This document shows positions 478 through 6,035 of a stretch of DNA of 6,035 bases, in pieces; the stretch's first letter is position 1; each line of letters opens with the position of its first letter. Position numbers and translations under genes: made by a program. The stretch is from assembly GCA_017963875.1 (NCBI GenBank), contig JAGCTA010000154.1:1-6035 (forward strand), given 5' to 3'. The notes under the pieces were generated by a model that saw only the letters and a program-made list of their open reading frames with translations, searched no databases and was not told where the DNA came from. The DNA is from Victivallales bacterium. Its GTDB lineage: Bacteria; Verrucomicrobiota; Lentisphaeria; Oligosphaerales; Oligosphaeraceae.

Positions 478-1257
478 TCACAGCCTGGCTGCAAAGTGAT
501 TCAACGGTCCATTGCCATGCCCCAACTGTGGGTCGTGGCGCAGAATTTCCGTAATGTATTTTTTTGCCATGGCGACCGCCTGAACGACATCATATCCCAT
601 CGCAAGCCCCGCCGCAATTGCCGATGACAGCGTGCAACCAGTTCCATGCGTATTGCGCACATCAATACGTTCCATTCGAAACCAGTGGCATTCGTCATTG
701 ACATACAGCAAATCATCCGCCACATCTGCCAAATGACCGCCTTTGACAAGCACCGCGGCATCGCATGACAAAGCCTTTGCGGCAGTCACCATGCCGTTCT
801 GGTCATGAATTTCATGCACGCCAGAAAGATACGCGACCTCTGGGAGATTTGGCGTAACGATTTCAGCCAAGGGCAGCAATTCCTCCCGCAATGCCTGAAC
901 ACCGTTTGCATCCAACAATTCCCGCCCAGATGTTGACAATATCACGGTATCAAGCACGACATGTTGTGCTTGATAATACTTCAGCCGTTCTGCAATTGTC
1001 CTAACGATTCCCTCATTGCACAACATGCCGATTTTTACGGCGTCTGGCCGTATATCGGAAAAAACGCTGTCAATTTGCTGCGCGACCATCTCTGGAGAAA
1101 CTGCCTGGACTCCTTGGACGCCAAGGGTATTCTGCGCAGTTATCGCCGTAATGGCACTCATGGCATAGACACCCAACGCGGACATTGTCTTGATATCCGC
1201 TTGAATCCCCGCGCCACCACTGGAATCTGACCCTGCAATGCTTAATGCCGTTTTCAT
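478..1257 (-). CDS. thiD: ThiD, hydroxymethylpyrimidine / phosphomethylpyrimidine kinase
   Basis: This 259-residue protein has the usual ThiD length of about 260-270. ThiD is a cytoplasmic ribokinase-fold enzyme that phosphorylates HMP to HMP-P and HMP-P to HMP-PP, the pyrimidine donor for thiamine phosphate synthase. Visible motifs in order are the N-terminal GSDSSGGAGIQAD (9-21), AITAQNT (38-44) with the Gln of the pyrimidine site, KIGML (75-79), a VLDTVILSTSG segment (101-111), TPNLPE (135-140), KGGH (172-175), the anion-hole HGTGC with the proposed catalytic Cys208 (204-208), and the C-terminal GHGNGPLNH (247-254). The usual LDP of the middle motif reads LDT here. The ATG overlaps the upstream HAD stop as ATGA (1254-1257) and has no strong ribosome binding site close by. 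Translation probably depends on coupling to the HAD gene. It is the last gene of the riboswitch-controlled operon, and no convincing terminator follows it. Confidence 0.96.
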   Translation of the reverse strand: MKTALSIAGSDSSGGAGIQADIKTMSALGVYAMSAITAITAQNTLGVQGVQAVSPEMVAQQIDSVFSDIRPDAVKIGMLCNEGIVRTIAERLKYYQAQHVVLDTVILSTSGRELLDANGVQALREELLPLAEIVTPNLPEVAYLSGVHEIHDQNGMVTAAKALSCDAAVLVKGGHLADVADDLLYVNDECHWFRMERIDVRNTHGTGCTLSSAIAAGLAMGYDVVQAVAMAKKYITEILRHDPQLGHGNGPLNHFAARL

Positions 1258-1850
1258 ATCATATTCGGTGTAATGACCTTCATTCCCGTGAGTTGCGCCC
1301 CTGCGACAGCATACGGAGCATCCTCGTAAACTGTCGTCTCATCCAATGCGGTCCCCAATAATTTCAGAACATGCAAATACGCTTCAGGGGTTGACTTATC
1401 CACGCCAGTCCCGACAGTCGAAACAATGCAATCAAAATACTGTCTGATACCTGTTCGAACAAGTGCCGCTGTTGCGGCAGAGTCCTCAGTCGAAGTAAAA
1501 AGCGCAATCCGAGTGCCCGCATCATGCAGTTTTACAAGCAAAGCCTTGCTATACGGAAACAACGGTGCATCATCTGTATAGACATGACGAATGTCGGCAA
1601 GAAGTTCATCTCGAATTGCAAGAACGTCCTCATCCAGACCGTATGCCTTTTTCAGATATGCGGCGGCTTCATCCATTTCCATGGAATCCAAATGTTGCTG
1701 CAATCCTTGTTCAGGCTTCTTTCCCTTGCGCTGAAGGTAATTTTCCCCAAGATGTTCCCAATATGGCAGGCTATCAAGGATTGTCCCGTCCAAATCCACG
1801 ATGGCACCACGACCTTTGCCCACGGCATCATCTGGCCTTCCATCATCCAT
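1254..1850 (-). CDS. HAD-superfamily phosphatase embedded in the thiamine operon (candidate thiamine-pathway phosphatase)
   Basis: From the ATG at 1850 this is a 198-residue HAD hydrolase of the beta-phosphoglucomutase/phosphatase-like type. All four HAD motifs are present: motif I DLDGT with nucleophile Asp19 and acid/base Asp21, motif II LFTST (117-121), motif III Lys152 in DKSTPEAY, and motif IV YEDAPYAV with Glu176-Asp177. The segment between motifs I and II (about 27-95) is a helical cap. The frame stays open upstream to 2171, but that part lies inside the thiC coding region in another frame and is not HAD-like, so the start must be near 1850. A GAAGG sequence lies 11 nt before this ATG. 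GTG at 1859 or at 1823 is an alternative. The gene begins 28 bp after the thiC stop, and its own stop overlaps thiD as ATGA. Known HAD enzymes act on thiamine phosphate or HMP phosphates, so such a role is likely here, but the substrate is inferred from context only. Confidence 0.87.
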   Translation of the reverse strand: MDDGRPDDAVGKGRGAIVDLDGTILDSLPYWEHLGENYLQRKGKKPEQGLQQHLDSMEMDEAAAYLKKAYGLDEDVLAIRDELLADIRHVYTDDAPLFPYSKALLVKLHDAGTRIALFTSTEDSAATAALVRTGIRQYFDCIVSTVGTGVDKSTPEAYLHVLKLLGTALDETTVYEDAPYAVAGAQLTGMKVITPNMI

Positions 1851-1878
1851 TGATTGCACCGCCTTCGCCGTCAAAACA

Positions 1879-3189
1879 TCAGATTTCCTTGCTGACGCGA
1901 ATCGAGCAGAATTTAGCACCGCACATGGAGCAGAAGTGCTCACCATTGCGTGACCCTTGAAGCGGCGTGGGAGAATTGCGTTCGTTGATTGCCTCCTGAC
2001 GCATGGCACGCGCCTTCTCTGGATCAAGCGCCAAATCGAATTGCCGTTCCCAGTCGAATACTGCACGTGCGTCAGAAATGGCGTCATCCTTTTCCCTGGC
2101 ACCTGGAATATGCTTGGCGATATCGGCCACATGAGCCGCGATCTTGTATGCGATAACCCCTTGATGGACATCCTCTGCGTTTGGCAGACCGATATGCTCC
2201 TTTGGCGTCACATAGCACAGCATGGCGGCACCATGCCATGCGCCAACCGCCGCGCCAATGGCACTGGTGATGTGGTCATAGCCAGGAGCGCAATCCATGG
2301 TGACTGGTCCAAGAACGTAAAACGGCGCATCATGGCACCATAATTGCTCCAGTTTCATGTTCATTTCGACTTCATCCAGCGGAATGTGGCCTGGACCTTC
2401 AATCATGACCTGGACATGGGCCTCGCGACAACGCAATGCGAGTTCACCCAACTGTGCCAACTCGCCGAACTGCGCCTGGTCTGACGCGTCTGCCAGACAT
2501 CCTGGGCGCAAACCATCCCCAAGGGAGATGGTCACGTCGTATTTACGGCAAATTTCAAGAATATCATCGAAGAACTCATAATAGGGGTTGTCGTGCCCTG
2601 TCTGCGCCATGTATCTTGCAATCAAGGCACCGCCACGCGAAACAATGCGCATCTTGCGTTTTCTGGCGGCAGGAAGCATCGATGGACGAATTCCGCAATG
2701 CATCGTCATATAATCGACCCCCTGCTCCGCCTGGTCACGGATGACCGCAAGCACGGCGTCCTTTGAAAAATCAATTGAATCATCGTTTCCGCAACGGCAG
2801 GCTAGTTCATAGATTGGCACGGTTCCAACAGGAATGATGGAATGTTCGATAATCATCCGCCGAGTCTGTTCAAGATTGTCACCCGTTGACAAATCCATGA
2901 CCGTATCAGAGCCGTAGGCAATGGCCGCATCCAACTTCTTCAGTTCCTGCGAAATGCAACTCGACGTCGGCGAAGTCCCGATATTGGCGTTGATTTTTGT
3001 CTTCAGTTCACGCCCTATGCCCATGGGCTTCAAACTCGTGTGCAGTTTATTCGCTGGAATGACAATTCGCCCGTCAGCGACACGTTCACGAATCCATTCA
3101 GGCTCACGACGTTCACTTTCAGCGACAGCCCTCATTTCCGCAGTCACTTCGCCGCGCAGCGCGGCATCCATCTGATTCGTCTTTTCCAT
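1879..3189 (-). CDS. thiC: ThiC, phosphomethylpyrimidine synthase (radical SAM)
   Basis: ThiC converts 5-aminoimidazole ribotide into hydroxymethylpyrimidine phosphate, a radical-SAM rearrangement that starts the pyrimidine branch of thiamine synthesis. The 436-residue protein is the short form of the family, without the long N-terminal extension of the enterobacterial and plant enzymes. Visible landmarks are INANIGTSP (66-74), DTVMDLSTG (95-103), MHCGIRP (163-169), SLGDGLRPG (222-230), EGPGHIP with His268 and GYDHIT with His306 (the two His residues expected to hold the metal), and the C-terminal CX2CX4C cluster motif at Cys420, Cys423 and Cys428. That is the non-canonical spacing typical of ThiC. 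The chosen ATG has GGAG 10 nt upstream. An in-frame ATG six codons in (3171) is the only close alternative. It is the first gene of the operon, downstream of a TPP riboswitch, so expression should fall when TPP is plentiful. Confidence 0.97.
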
Positions 3190-3447: not shown

Positions 3448-3476
3448 TTTACAACCCATCATCCAAATGATATAGT
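3448..3476 (+). promoter_or_regulatory. Candidate sigma-70 promoter of the capA-like operon
   Basis: TTTACA (3448-3453) and TATAGT (3471-3476) are separated by the ideal 17 bp, and each hexamer matches the consensus at five of six positions. The predicted start near 3483 leaves a leader of about 39 nt before the ATG at 3522. That leader is A/T-rich and holds no recognisable Shine-Dalgarno sequence. No operator-like repeat is evident around it. Confidence 0.6.
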
Positions 3477-3521: not shown

Positions 3522-4700
3522 ATGACTACGAAACCATTTGAACTATTGATAACTGGCGACCTGGCCCCCATCAGGCATTTTGCGACAATTATTGAAAAGG
3601 AGCCTATGAAGGTCTATGGCGACCTTCTTCCTATCATCTGCCACGCGGACTACCGCATCGCCAACCTTGAATCAACGCTTGTCGGCCAAGATTTCATTGT
3701 CAAAAGCGGTGCGGCTTTCGCAGGAAAGCCATTGCATCTGCCTGTATTGACGCAAGTTCCCTTTGATGCTGTCACTCTCGCCAACAACCACACACTGGAC
3801 ACAGGAAGAGAACATCTCGGAGAGTTTCTACAGTTGTTACATAATGCAGGATTATCCACCGTTGGAGCGGGTTTGACACAACGTGCCGCTGAAACTCCGT
3901 TGGTAATTCATCATGGTGATTTGTCCATCATTGTCTTCAACATGTCGGAGGGCGAAGACATGATGGCTGCCACAGGAAAAACAAGCGGTGTTGCGGGGTG
4001 GGATGTCCAACGGCTTTGTGCTAAAATCCGCCATGCAAAAGCCTCTGGGAAGTTCAATGCCATCATTGTCATCGTCCATTGCGGCCTTGAATACTATCCC
4101 TTTCCCCCGATGTATGTCTATGACGCATTCAAATGCATTGCCGAAGCAGGTGCGGACGTTATTGCAGGCCATCATGTCCATGTTCCCCAAGGCATGGCGA
4201 AATTTGGGAAAACTCCTGCCTATTTCAGCCTTGGCAATTTTGTTTTCTATCAGGAAAACCAACTTCTTCATCGTAAAACTGGCTATATGCTGAAAATCCG
4301 CATTGGCTCCAAAGGCGTTCTCGGCACGGAAATCATCCCCTATCGAATCGGCTCAGACAATCTTCGGCTGCTTTCTGAACCAGAAGCCAAAGCATTTCAG
4401 CGAGTCTTTTCAAAACTGTCCACGCCCTTGGCATCACGGCAAGCCGCAGAACTCGCTTGGCACGCCTGCCTGAAATGGTATGGCGTGGAAGGATTCAGAA
4501 AAGAACTGCAAACCATACTCGACAAATTTGACAGCGAGCCGCAGAAAGGGGCAGCGATGCTTAGAAACCGAGTCAACTGCATGCAACATCGAATGCAATG
4601 GACTGACGGTCTAAGTGACATTGTTTCGCAAAACAAACTGGATATCCCAAAAGAATATCTTACTCTTGTCAATGACTACTTCACGGAGACCCTTTCATGA
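3522..4700 (+). CDS. CapA-family protein (PGA_cap metallophosphoesterase-like), apparently cytoplasmic
   Basis: This 392-residue protein shows the CapA/PgsA (PGA_cap) signature, related to metallophosphoesterases. Motifs in order are TGDLAP (11-16, metal-ligand Asp13), NLES (48-51), LANNHTLD (86-93), VHCGLEY (185-191, where many relatives have HWG), GHHVHVPQGM (216-225) and SLGNFVF (236-242). CapA proteins are known from poly-gamma-glutamate capsule export or processing, where they are normally anchored outside the membrane. Here the catalytic fold begins about eight residues from the start, with no signal peptide or membrane segment, so the protein should stay in the cytoplasm. After about residue 280 comes a tail of roughly 110 residues that I do not recognise. 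The start is fixed by the first beta strand and by the promoter at 3448-3476. No Shine-Dalgarno is visible. It is the first gene of an operon, overlapping the racemase gene as ATGA. No capsule polymerase (capB/capC) is present in the window, so a capsule role is unproven. Confidence 0.85.
   Translation: MTTKPFELLITGDLAPIRHFATIIEKEPMKVYGDLLPIICHADYRIANLESTLVGQDFIVKSGAAFAGKPLHLPVLTQVPFDAVTLANNHTLDTGREHLGEFLQLLHNAGLSTVGAGLTQRAAETPLVIHHGDLSIIVFNMSEGEDMMAATGKTSGVAGWDVQRLCAKIRHAKASGKFNAIIVIVHCGLEYYPFPPMYVYDAFKCIAEAGADVIAGHHVHVPQGMAKFGKTPAYFSLGNFVFYQENQLLHRKTGYMLKIRIGSKGVLGTEIIPYRIGSDNLRLLSEPEAKAFQRVFSKLSTPLASRQAAELAWHACLKWYGVEGFRKELQTILDKFDSEPQKGAAMLRNRVNCMQHRMQWTDGLSDIVSQNKLDIPKEYLTLVNDYFTETLS
4685..4688 (+). 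promoter_or_regulatory. Ribosome binding site of the racemase gene
   Basis: GGAG lies 8 nt before the ATG at 4697, inside the 3' end of the capA-like gene. It supports this start and shows that the racemase can be initiated directly as well as by coupling through the ATGA overlap. Confidence 0.6.
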
Positions 4701-5521
4701 TTCCTCTAGTTGTCTGTGATTCAGGTCTGGGAGGCCTTGATGTCGCCGCTCATTTCTTCTCACCAAACGCAGGCGAGAAGAAATGGGACATCATCTATGT
4801 CAATGCCTACCCGTCAAGGGAATGGGGGTACAATGATCTGCCAACGTTAAGGGCACAGGAAGACCTCTTCCAATCCGTTCTAGAAGACATGCGGCAATAC
4901 TCACCTGCCCAATGTCTGATTGCCTGCAATACCTTGTCCATCATCTGGCAACGGCTCTCAACACGCTATAAGCCTCCATTTCCCGTCACTGGCATCATTG
5001 ATGCGGCAGTGAATCAAATGTCCGAATACATGCTTTCCAACCCGCAGTCCGAATTGCTGCTGTTGGGGACCAAATCAACCATTGAGTCTGGCATTTATCC
5101 AAAACTGCTGGAACAACGCGGCATTTCACCAGAAAGGTTGCATTCCATGGCATGTCCGCGCCTGGCGACACTTATCGAACAGGGACCGAAAGACTCTGCC
5201 GTCTCAACACGAATATCCGAATATGCAATCAAGGCCCAGGCGATGTTCCATTGCGCTCCCAAGCGCCTTGCCTTGGCTTTTTGCTGCACGCATTATGGCT
5301 ATGCAACGGCTTATTGGCGTGCGGCCTTTCAGCCACTGTTCGGAGACATCAATGTCCTTAACCCCAATGATGCGATGACCTTGCCTGGCGCAGGAGCAAG
5401 TTTCAAATATGTCACCAAAACGGCAATGACAGAGTCTCAACAATCCGCCATGGCTAAATGGTTTGATAATTCCGCATACGAAATTGCCGAGCTACTTCGC
5501 CTTGCGCCAGTCATCAAATGA
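4697..5521 (+). CDS. Glutamate/aspartate racemase family protein (MurI-like), divergent
   Basis: The 274-residue protein has the two-cysteine architecture of cofactor-independent amino acid racemases. The N-terminal DSGLGG (8-13) matches the MurI DSGxGG loop, ACNTLS (76-81) carries the first catalytic Cys77, and CCTHY (196-200) the second, Cys197 (MurI has GCTHY). A MACPRLATLIEQG segment (151-163) corresponds to the MurI region before the second cysteine. In MurI these two cysteines remove and replace the alpha proton of glutamate. The length is close to MurI. However, the MurI DxxRxPYG loop reads N-A-Y-P-S-R-E-W-G here (36-44), so the substrate may not be glutamate. A housekeeping MurI for peptidoglycan is possible, but the setting next to capA-like and ligase genes argues for a specialised racemase. 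The start is supported by GGAG 8 nt upstream and the ATGA overlap. The ligase gene begins 43 bp after the stop. Confidence 0.83.
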   Translation: MIPLVVCDSGLGGLDVAAHFFSPNAGEKKWDIIYVNAYPSREWGYNDLPTLRAQEDLFQSVLEDMRQYSPAQCLIACNTLSIIWQRLSTRYKPPFPVTGIIDAAVNQMSEYMLSNPQSELLLLGTKSTIESGIYPKLLEQRGISPERLHSMACPRLATLIEQGPKDSAVSTRISEYAIKAQAMFHCAPKRLALAFCCTHYGYATAYWRAAFQPLFGDINVLNPNDAMTLPGAGASFKYVTKTAMTESQQSAMAKWFDNSAYEIAELLRLAPVIK

Positions 5522-5547
5522 AATTACATATATCCAAATTACATTCC

Positions 5548-5553
5548 GAGGAG
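5548..5553 (+). promoter_or_regulatory. Ribosome binding site of the ATP-grasp ligase gene
   Basis: GAGGAG is the strongest Shine-Dalgarno match in the window and lies 11 nt before the ATG at 5565, which supports that start. It sits in a 43-bp gap with no terminator or clear promoter, so the ligase is probably read from the same transcript as the two genes before it. Confidence 0.65.
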
Positions 5554-5564
5554 TCCTTTGAATC

Positions 5565-6035
5565 ATGTCTAAAAAAGTTGCGCTGATTACAGGAGAGGCT
5601 GGAGATGCCCAGGGTTGGGGCAACATGCACGTCACGGAGGAAGTCTGCAAAGCGATACAGACCAATGGATTTGAATGCGAAATCGTCTGTGCGGAGTCCC
5701 CCGAGGAACTGCAAAGCGGCCTACAAAAAGTCAAGCCAGACCTTGCCTGGAGTTCACTGTATTTTTTCTCCGACAAATCGGAAATCATTGGCTCCATGGA
5801 CGGCAATGTTTGGATTGCAGACCTGCTGGACGATTGGCGCATTCCATACGTTGGGCCATCCGCAGAAACGATGAAAAACCTCATCAGTAAGTTCAAAACG
5901 CATGAAGTTCTTTCGGCGGCGGGCGTTCGTGTCCCAAGACATACACTCTGCCCCCCTGGAACCGCAGATGACATCGACTATTTTCCAGCGTTTGTCAAGC
6001 CAAACGGCGAATCACGCTCCATTGGCATTAGCGAC
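5565..6035 (+). CDS. ATP-grasp ligase, D-alanine-D-alanine ligase-like (3' truncated by window edge)
   Basis: The first 157 residues are visible. D-Ala-D-Ala ligases are usually 300-370 residues, so about half is missing. The N-terminal domain begins KKVALITGEAGD. It is followed by RIPYVGPSAETMKNLISK (92-109), which corresponds to the IPYTG...DK region of D-Ala-D-Ala ligases, then VLSAAGVRVP (115-124) and AFVKPNGESRSIGIS (142-156), with the ATP-binding Lys145 and the phosphate-covering loop before GIS. Enzymes of this family join an acyl-phosphate to an amine with ATP. Two family hallmarks are altered: the N-terminal GGxSxE substrate loop reads GEAGDAQGWG, and the HGxxGEDG block is replaced by a segment around SDKSEIIGSMDG (69-80). 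The substrates therefore probably differ from two D-alanines. The C-terminal metal-binding residues lie beyond the window. Its position after a racemase suggests that it uses a D-amino acid. Confidence 0.82.
   Translation, partial: MSKKVALITGEAGDAQGWGNMHVTEEVCKAIQTNGFECEIVCAESPEELQSGLQKVKPDLAWSSLYFFSDKSEIIGSMDGNVWIADLLDDWRIPYVGPSAETMKNLISKFKTHEVLSAAGVRVPRHTLCPPGTADDIDYFPAFVKPNGESRSIGISD

Follow-up and report, generated by a model that had tools for sequence, protein, structure and literature searches.

A conserved module of CapA-like, racemase-like and Ddl-fold ligase genes in Lentisphaeria, with a plausible D-amino-acid-containing product

The stretch of DNA analyzed here (the window; 6,035 nucleotides, positions 1 to 6,035 of contig JAGCTA010000154.1 in assembly GCA_017963875.1 of a Victivallales bacterium) encodes on its forward strand a CapA-like protein, a racemase and an ATP-grasp ligase with the fold of D-alanine–D-alanine ligase (Ddl), and these three genes form one operon. 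The CapA-like gene (3522–4700, +) is an open reading frame (ORF) of 392 aa that matches PGA_cap (PF09587) at 158.1 bits (cut-off 27), the racemase gene (4697–5521, +) is an ORF of 274 aa that matches Asp_Glu_race (PF01177) at 34.2 bits (cut-off 31), and the ligase gene (5565–6035, +) is represented by its first 157 aa and is open at the window end. The ORFs and the sequence place the TGA of the CapA-like gene and the ATG of the racemase gene in an ATGA stop/start overlap (4697–4700, +); the ligase gene begins after a gap of 43 bp, with a GAGGAG ribosome-binding site (5548–5553, +) 11 nt upstream of its ATG. These coordinates confirm an initial annotation of the window, which had proposed a single operon from the overlap, the gap and the ribosome site, and which had expected the operon to run past the window end. 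It does so, and among 23 related loci there are 15 in which a C26 hydrolase gene comes after the ligase gene. The same annotation had placed a strong promoter ahead of the operon; a promoter-like site (TTTACA-17-TATAGT, with TG before the -10) is present at 3448–3476 (+), but it is weak evidence and its claimed strength is not upheld, since the window has 10 sites of this kind, compared with 5.7 ± 2.2 in shuffles.

A profile scan that covered a single genome from each species yielded the 23 related loci, for which codon-scored gene calls were used; a single-sequence scan of genome contigs gave no match. The loci come mostly from Lentisphaeria, Lentisphaerae or Victivallales (one from Oligosphaeraceae), many of them sampled from rumen, colon, cecum or faeces (exceptions include L020, L021, and L023), and the named database relatives of the window racemase and CapA-like protein are metagenome-assembled genomes of Victivallales, Victivallaceae or Lentisphaeria. 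In the protein database, the racemase and CapA-like protein of the window itself are assigned to a contig of 31,378 bases. Among 197 genomes of the class Lentisphaeria (the class of genome G008), the CapA profile, for which only matches at E ≤ 1e-70 were kept, identified 32 genomes, and the ATP-grasp profile identified the same 32 at 264 bits or more, the next match being at 122 bits (Fisher p = 1e-37 for co-occurrence of CapA and ligase, calculated on genomes that are not independent). The racemase profile identified 36 genomes at 149 bits or more, namely 31 of the 32 carriers plus G063, G083, G143, G144, and G180; in the remaining carrier (G166) the contig ends inside the CapA gene on the side where the racemase would lie, which accounts for the missing match. 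Of the 32 carriers, 23 were picked up by the racemase scan and supplied most of the sequences in the ligase profile, so the nine other carriers and the 165 absences provide the cleaner evidence. Pairwise distances of the three proteins also correlate over 30 genomes (Spearman 0.87–0.90, with no species-tree control), and in G297, which lies outside the 197, genes for CapA, racemase, ligase and an N-formylglutamate-amidohydrolase (FGase)-type protein occur in a row. The three subfamilies are retained or missing as a set, and their status as a module is well supported.

Gene order is likewise maintained, in support of the initial annotation: the CapA and racemase genes are adjacent in 22 of the 23 loci (all except L014), with a median gap of -4 in 32 neighbor pairs including the window, and 22 of the 23 loci also contain the ATP-grasp gene (the exception being L001, in whose genome a separate contig, L069, carries the ligase together with a C26 hydrolase). 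An MFS gene separates the ATP-grasp gene from the other module genes in L017. The set is split in nine carriers (G001, G014, G051, G052, G162, G166, G171, G173, and G178), where the genes still co-occur, and G169 has either a split set or a contig break. In L054–L057, L060, and L101, CapA belongs to another operon, alongside genes for a DUF2059 protein, a ureidoglycolate-lyase-like protein and an RNB-type ribonuclease; this operon includes the racemase in all but L101 (where the contig ends in CapA), and a DUF362 iron–sulfur protein is also encoded in L054–L057 and L060. The ligase of three genomes with this type of operon (L070, L071, and L074) follows or neighbors a phosphoglycerate kinase gene.

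To our knowledge, the chemistry of CapA/PgsA proteins is unsettled. The CapA-like protein (31 sequences aligned) comprises the PGA_cap domain and a conserved C-terminal region, with no hydrophobic stretch that could serve as a membrane segment (maximum KD19 1.12). Additional paralogs of the CapA subfamily are encoded in G007 (three) and G011 (one), at 308–386 bits. The family profile scores the lasso-peptide tryptophan epimerase MslH at 76.3 bits, and of the eight functional residues of MslH described in the accessible text of PMC10406935, Glu44, Asn87, His88, Asp91, His259, and His295 align with identical residues that are invariant in the 31 sequences. The correspondence is incomplete: the MslH calcium ligand His261 is Gly188 in the CapA-like protein, Asp11 falls outside the aligned stretch (CapA Asp13 being its likely counterpart by position only), and the window protein reaches 39.2 bits against the MslH model NF038314, for which the cut-off is 700. 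No lasso genes were seen in the neighborhoods scanned.

On sequence grounds, the racemase is a member of the Asp/Glu-racemase superfamily with a two-cysteine site. Alignment with 10 MurI proteins of the class revealed that the DSG, CNT, and CTH motifs are retained, and Cys77 and Cys197, corresponding to the MurI cysteine pair, are invariant in 39 relatives. By contrast, the VPYG loop of MurI, in which the PYG residues bind the substrate side chain, is exchanged for a longer YPSxxxG(Y/F)N loop. Scores against the MurI model TIGR00067 (cut-off 146.65) are 56.1 bits for the window protein and 44–70 bits for its relatives. An AlphaFold model (pLDDT 95.6) retrieved glutamate racemases as matches 1–47 in Foldseek, with TM-scores of about 0.6–0.72 by query length. 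A tblastn search of plasmids with the racemase gave no match. A second, more distant racemase, encoded in L067 (G019) and L068 (G017) at 227–232 bits and in L059 (G180) at 222 bits, adjoins a LacI-type regulator (the family being seen in L059) and is near LpxC, FabA-like, and FtsA-like genes.

Of the three proteins, the ligase shows the strongest conservation, with a mean column identity of 72% (22 sequences), compared with 63% for CapA (31) and 49% for the racemase (39). The 157-aa window fragment has no Pfam match and only weak matches to the NCBIfam D-Ala–D-Ala ligase models (24 bits, cut-off 243), and the full-length ligase of a relative (L008) reaches 65.7 bits, compared with a Ddl cut-off of 245.65. 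A model of the latter protein (pLDDT 88.6) retrieved Ddl or D-Ala:D-Lac ligases in Foldseek as 50 of 50 among the matches listed. When 22 module ligases were compared with seven Ddl proteins of carriers, the R-x-D and E-x-N metal motifs were found to be retained, and the substrate motifs were found to be replaced: SxEHE/SSEREVS by DAQGWGNMxVT, HGxxGEDG by YFFSxREDIIG, GSSxG by SRSxG (with Arg152 at the GSS position), and NTxPGxT by NGIPGLKP (with Lys288 after PG). In Ddl, Ser150 and Glu15 bind substrate. Genome G001 has a second copy of the module ligase (L077), located between an upstream FGase-type gene and a downstream gene for outer-membrane efflux.

Several hydrolases recur beside the module. 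A C26 hydrolase (PF07722; gamma-glutamyl-hydrolase type) adjoins the set in 16 of the 23 loci, 3′ of the ligase in all but L014, where it is 5′ of the racemase, and 29 of the 32 carriers encode a full-length C26 protein (136 bits or more), usually in or beside the operon. A D-aminoacylase-like amidohydrolase (PF07969) precedes CapA in 8 of 23 loci, and a PIG-L deacetylase does so in L017 and L019, with a 79–80% identical protein before CapA in the genome of L014. An FGase-type protein (PF05013) adjoins the ligase in L058, L077, and L078, and an M19 dipeptidase adjoins it in L069, which also encodes a solute symporter and a protein resembling GH3 beta-N-acetylhexosaminidase (145 bits, cut-off 207). 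In L020, a murF-type gene precedes CapA. Elsewhere in the window are the C-terminal part of a TonB-type protein (1–435, +; PF03544, 79.7 bits) and, divergent from the CapA operon, a row of genes for which Pfam indicates thiC, a HAD hydrolase and a thiD-type kinase (478–3189, –). The row probably represents the pyrimidine branch of thiamine synthesis, in which the HAD enzyme may act as a phosphatase. These are the only other Pfam matches, and no mur/fts or capsule-polymerase gene is present in the window, in agreement with the initial annotation.

That annotation had also argued, from departures in motif, that these are not the housekeeping copies of ddl and murI. The departures hold for both enzymes, and for the ligase the argument stands: an ordinary ddl is encoded elsewhere in most carriers (TIGR01205 over cut-off in 14 of 23 genomes, with five more at 231.8–242.6 bits, and no full match in G009, G014, G019, and G023), and with its substrate motifs replaced, the module ligase was rejected as the housekeeping Ddl. 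The ordinary Ddl of carriers (L105–L108, L110, L112–L116) forms the end of a long frame, of 617–709 aa in many, as if fused to another protein, and a conserved 127-aa gene precedes this frame. For the racemase the argument fails in part, since canonical murI is absent from 30 of the 32 carriers; by the test that the annotation itself set, this racemase could be what provides the cell with D-glutamate. Across the class, 64 of 197 genomes have a murI match over cut-off, comprising 62 of the 165 non-carriers and two carriers (G005, with a contig-edge fragment, and G006, in which murI is 2.7 kb from ddl), a difference with a Fisher p of about 3e-4 that is uncorrected for kinship. None of the 197 genomes has a D-amino-acid transaminase over cut-off, and DapF, searched in the carriers, passes its cut-off in 15 of 32. 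This leaves 17 carriers that lack canonical murI, D-amino-acid transaminase and DapF, and in these no candidate other than the module racemase was found. On the other hand, canonical murI (at 139 bits or more) and the module racemase are both missing from 98 of the 197 genomes, so the lack of MurI does not call for this enzyme. According to the available portion of PMC5885031, DapF is known to act as a D-glutamate racemase in Chlamydia, and PVC bacteria, most of which are without MurI, may use it.

We consider a D-amino-acid-containing product plausible, and tentatively favor, at a probability of about 0.4, a cytosolic module of three enzymes, usually joined by a C26 hydrolase, that would make and trim a small D-amino-acid amide, most likely a glutamyl or gamma-glutamyl one. 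In this scheme, the racemase would invert glutamate or a relative substituted in the side chain; the ligase would activate a carboxyl group as an acyl phosphate and join it to an amine; CapA, as a putative metal-dependent enzyme of calcineurin-like fold related to the peptide epimerase MslH, would epimerize or otherwise tailor the amide; and the C26 enzyme, or the FGase-type enzyme where that is the neighbor, would open the glutamyl amide for release or turnover. The changed side-chain loop of the racemase, the exchange of the amine-side serine for arginine in the ligase and the recurring gamma-glutamyl-type hydrolase together point to a glutamyl amide with a D-center, and the neighbors that act on glutamyl or N-acyl amino-acid amides (PF07722, PF05013, PF07969, and M19) count for the same reading.

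Several observations weigh against this proposal. We infer both the substrates and the product, and the assignment of substrates is itself a weak point; the window's own ligase is visible for just 157 aa; five genomes have the more distant racemase (150–223 bits) and lack CapA and the ligase; and the genome counts are not phylogenetically independent. C26 is a broad family, matched in 14 of 14 control genomes in a search that covered carriers and controls. The upstream partners differ (amidohydrolase, PIG-L deacetylase, ribulokinase, LacI regulator), and the best solved-structure matches of the amidohydrolase include carbohydrate deacetylases, such that a sugar theme fits too. A quite improbable variant, which would account for the loss of the PYG loop as well as for the resemblance of CapA to MslH, is a detour to D-glutamate or D-glutamyl compounds that would replace the absent MurI: the ligase would conjugate glutamate through its side-chain carboxyl, the racemase, CapA or both would invert the conjugate, and C26 would release the D-product.

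The scarcity of canonical murI among carriers, the 17 carriers with no other candidate, and the murF-type gene of L020 would also be explained if the racemase supplied D-glutamate for peptidoglycan in MurI-less Lentisphaeria, with CapA and the ligase serving or regulating that supply. We regard this as doubtful in view of the many genomes with neither enzyme, the general rarity of MurI in PVC bacteria (PMC5885031, available portion), the possession of both the module and canonical MurI by G006, and the altered substrate loop; the strict link with CapA and the ligase would also be left unexplained. Salvage of gamma-D-glutamyl or other D-amino-acid peptides, such as cell-wall stem peptides, would have amidases release amino acids, the racemase convert the D-form to the L-form, and the ligase remake a peptide for further use. 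The hydrolytic character of the C26, FGase-type, D-aminoacylase-like, and M19 neighbors is consistent with such a role, as are the GH3-like gene and symporter of L069, but the hydrolase partners vary, and an ATP-using ligase that is the most conserved of the three proteins and occurs in all carriers would be odd in a purely catabolic set; we therefore judge salvage unlikely.

The initial annotation had further suggested a capsule unit, and a PGA_cap domain beside a glutamate-racemase-like partner does recall the systems for poly-gamma-glutamate capsules. This suggestion was not sustained: none of the 38 genomes searched, carriers and near-carriers, has PgsB (TIGR04012) over cut-off (the Bacillus subtilis control matches), and CapA has no membrane segment, on which grounds a capsule system was rejected as nearly excluded.

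All three proteins are divergent members of known families, and their combination appears to be new: no description of a CapA–racemase–ligase set was found in the literature listings searched, a scope that excluded subscription papers. Known enzyme folds are thus tied into a strict, seemingly undescribed module in bacteria that are mostly from gut and rumen, and since this soluble CapA comes with two constant partner enzymes, its reaction can be tested by reconstituting a small system. Should D-glutamate or a D-glutamyl amide be what the module makes, gut and rumen bacteria would have a further D-amino-acid pathway, one that is non-ribosomal and free of non-ribosomal peptide synthetase (NRPS), and the module would touch on how MurI-less PVC bacteria obtain D-glutamate. 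Were the detour to be true, CapA-type proteins would gain a defined epimerase role in a route that stands in for MurI in Lentisphaeria that are without one.

In relation to known systems, the racemase resembles MurI/RacE in its fold, its DSG, CNT, and CTH motifs and its two cysteines, and differs in the substrate loop and in a score below the curated cut-off; similarly, the ligase has the ATP-grasp fold and the R-x-D and E-x-N metal motifs of Ddl, and differs in its substrate motifs and in a score under the curated cut-off. The PGA_cap domain is common to the CapA-like protein and to PgsA/CapA of poly-gamma-glutamate capsules (PMC3815933, as far as its accessible text goes), systems from which the module departs in the lack of PgsB over cut-off in the genomes searched here and of a CapA membrane segment. 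A further parallel, drawn by kinds of enzyme alone, is with the stand-alone ligase and epimerase routes to D-residue peptides in the accessible part of PMC13338154: that system is an assembled cascade towards penicillins, and, as in the module described here, it combines an amide ligase with an epimerase without an NRPS.

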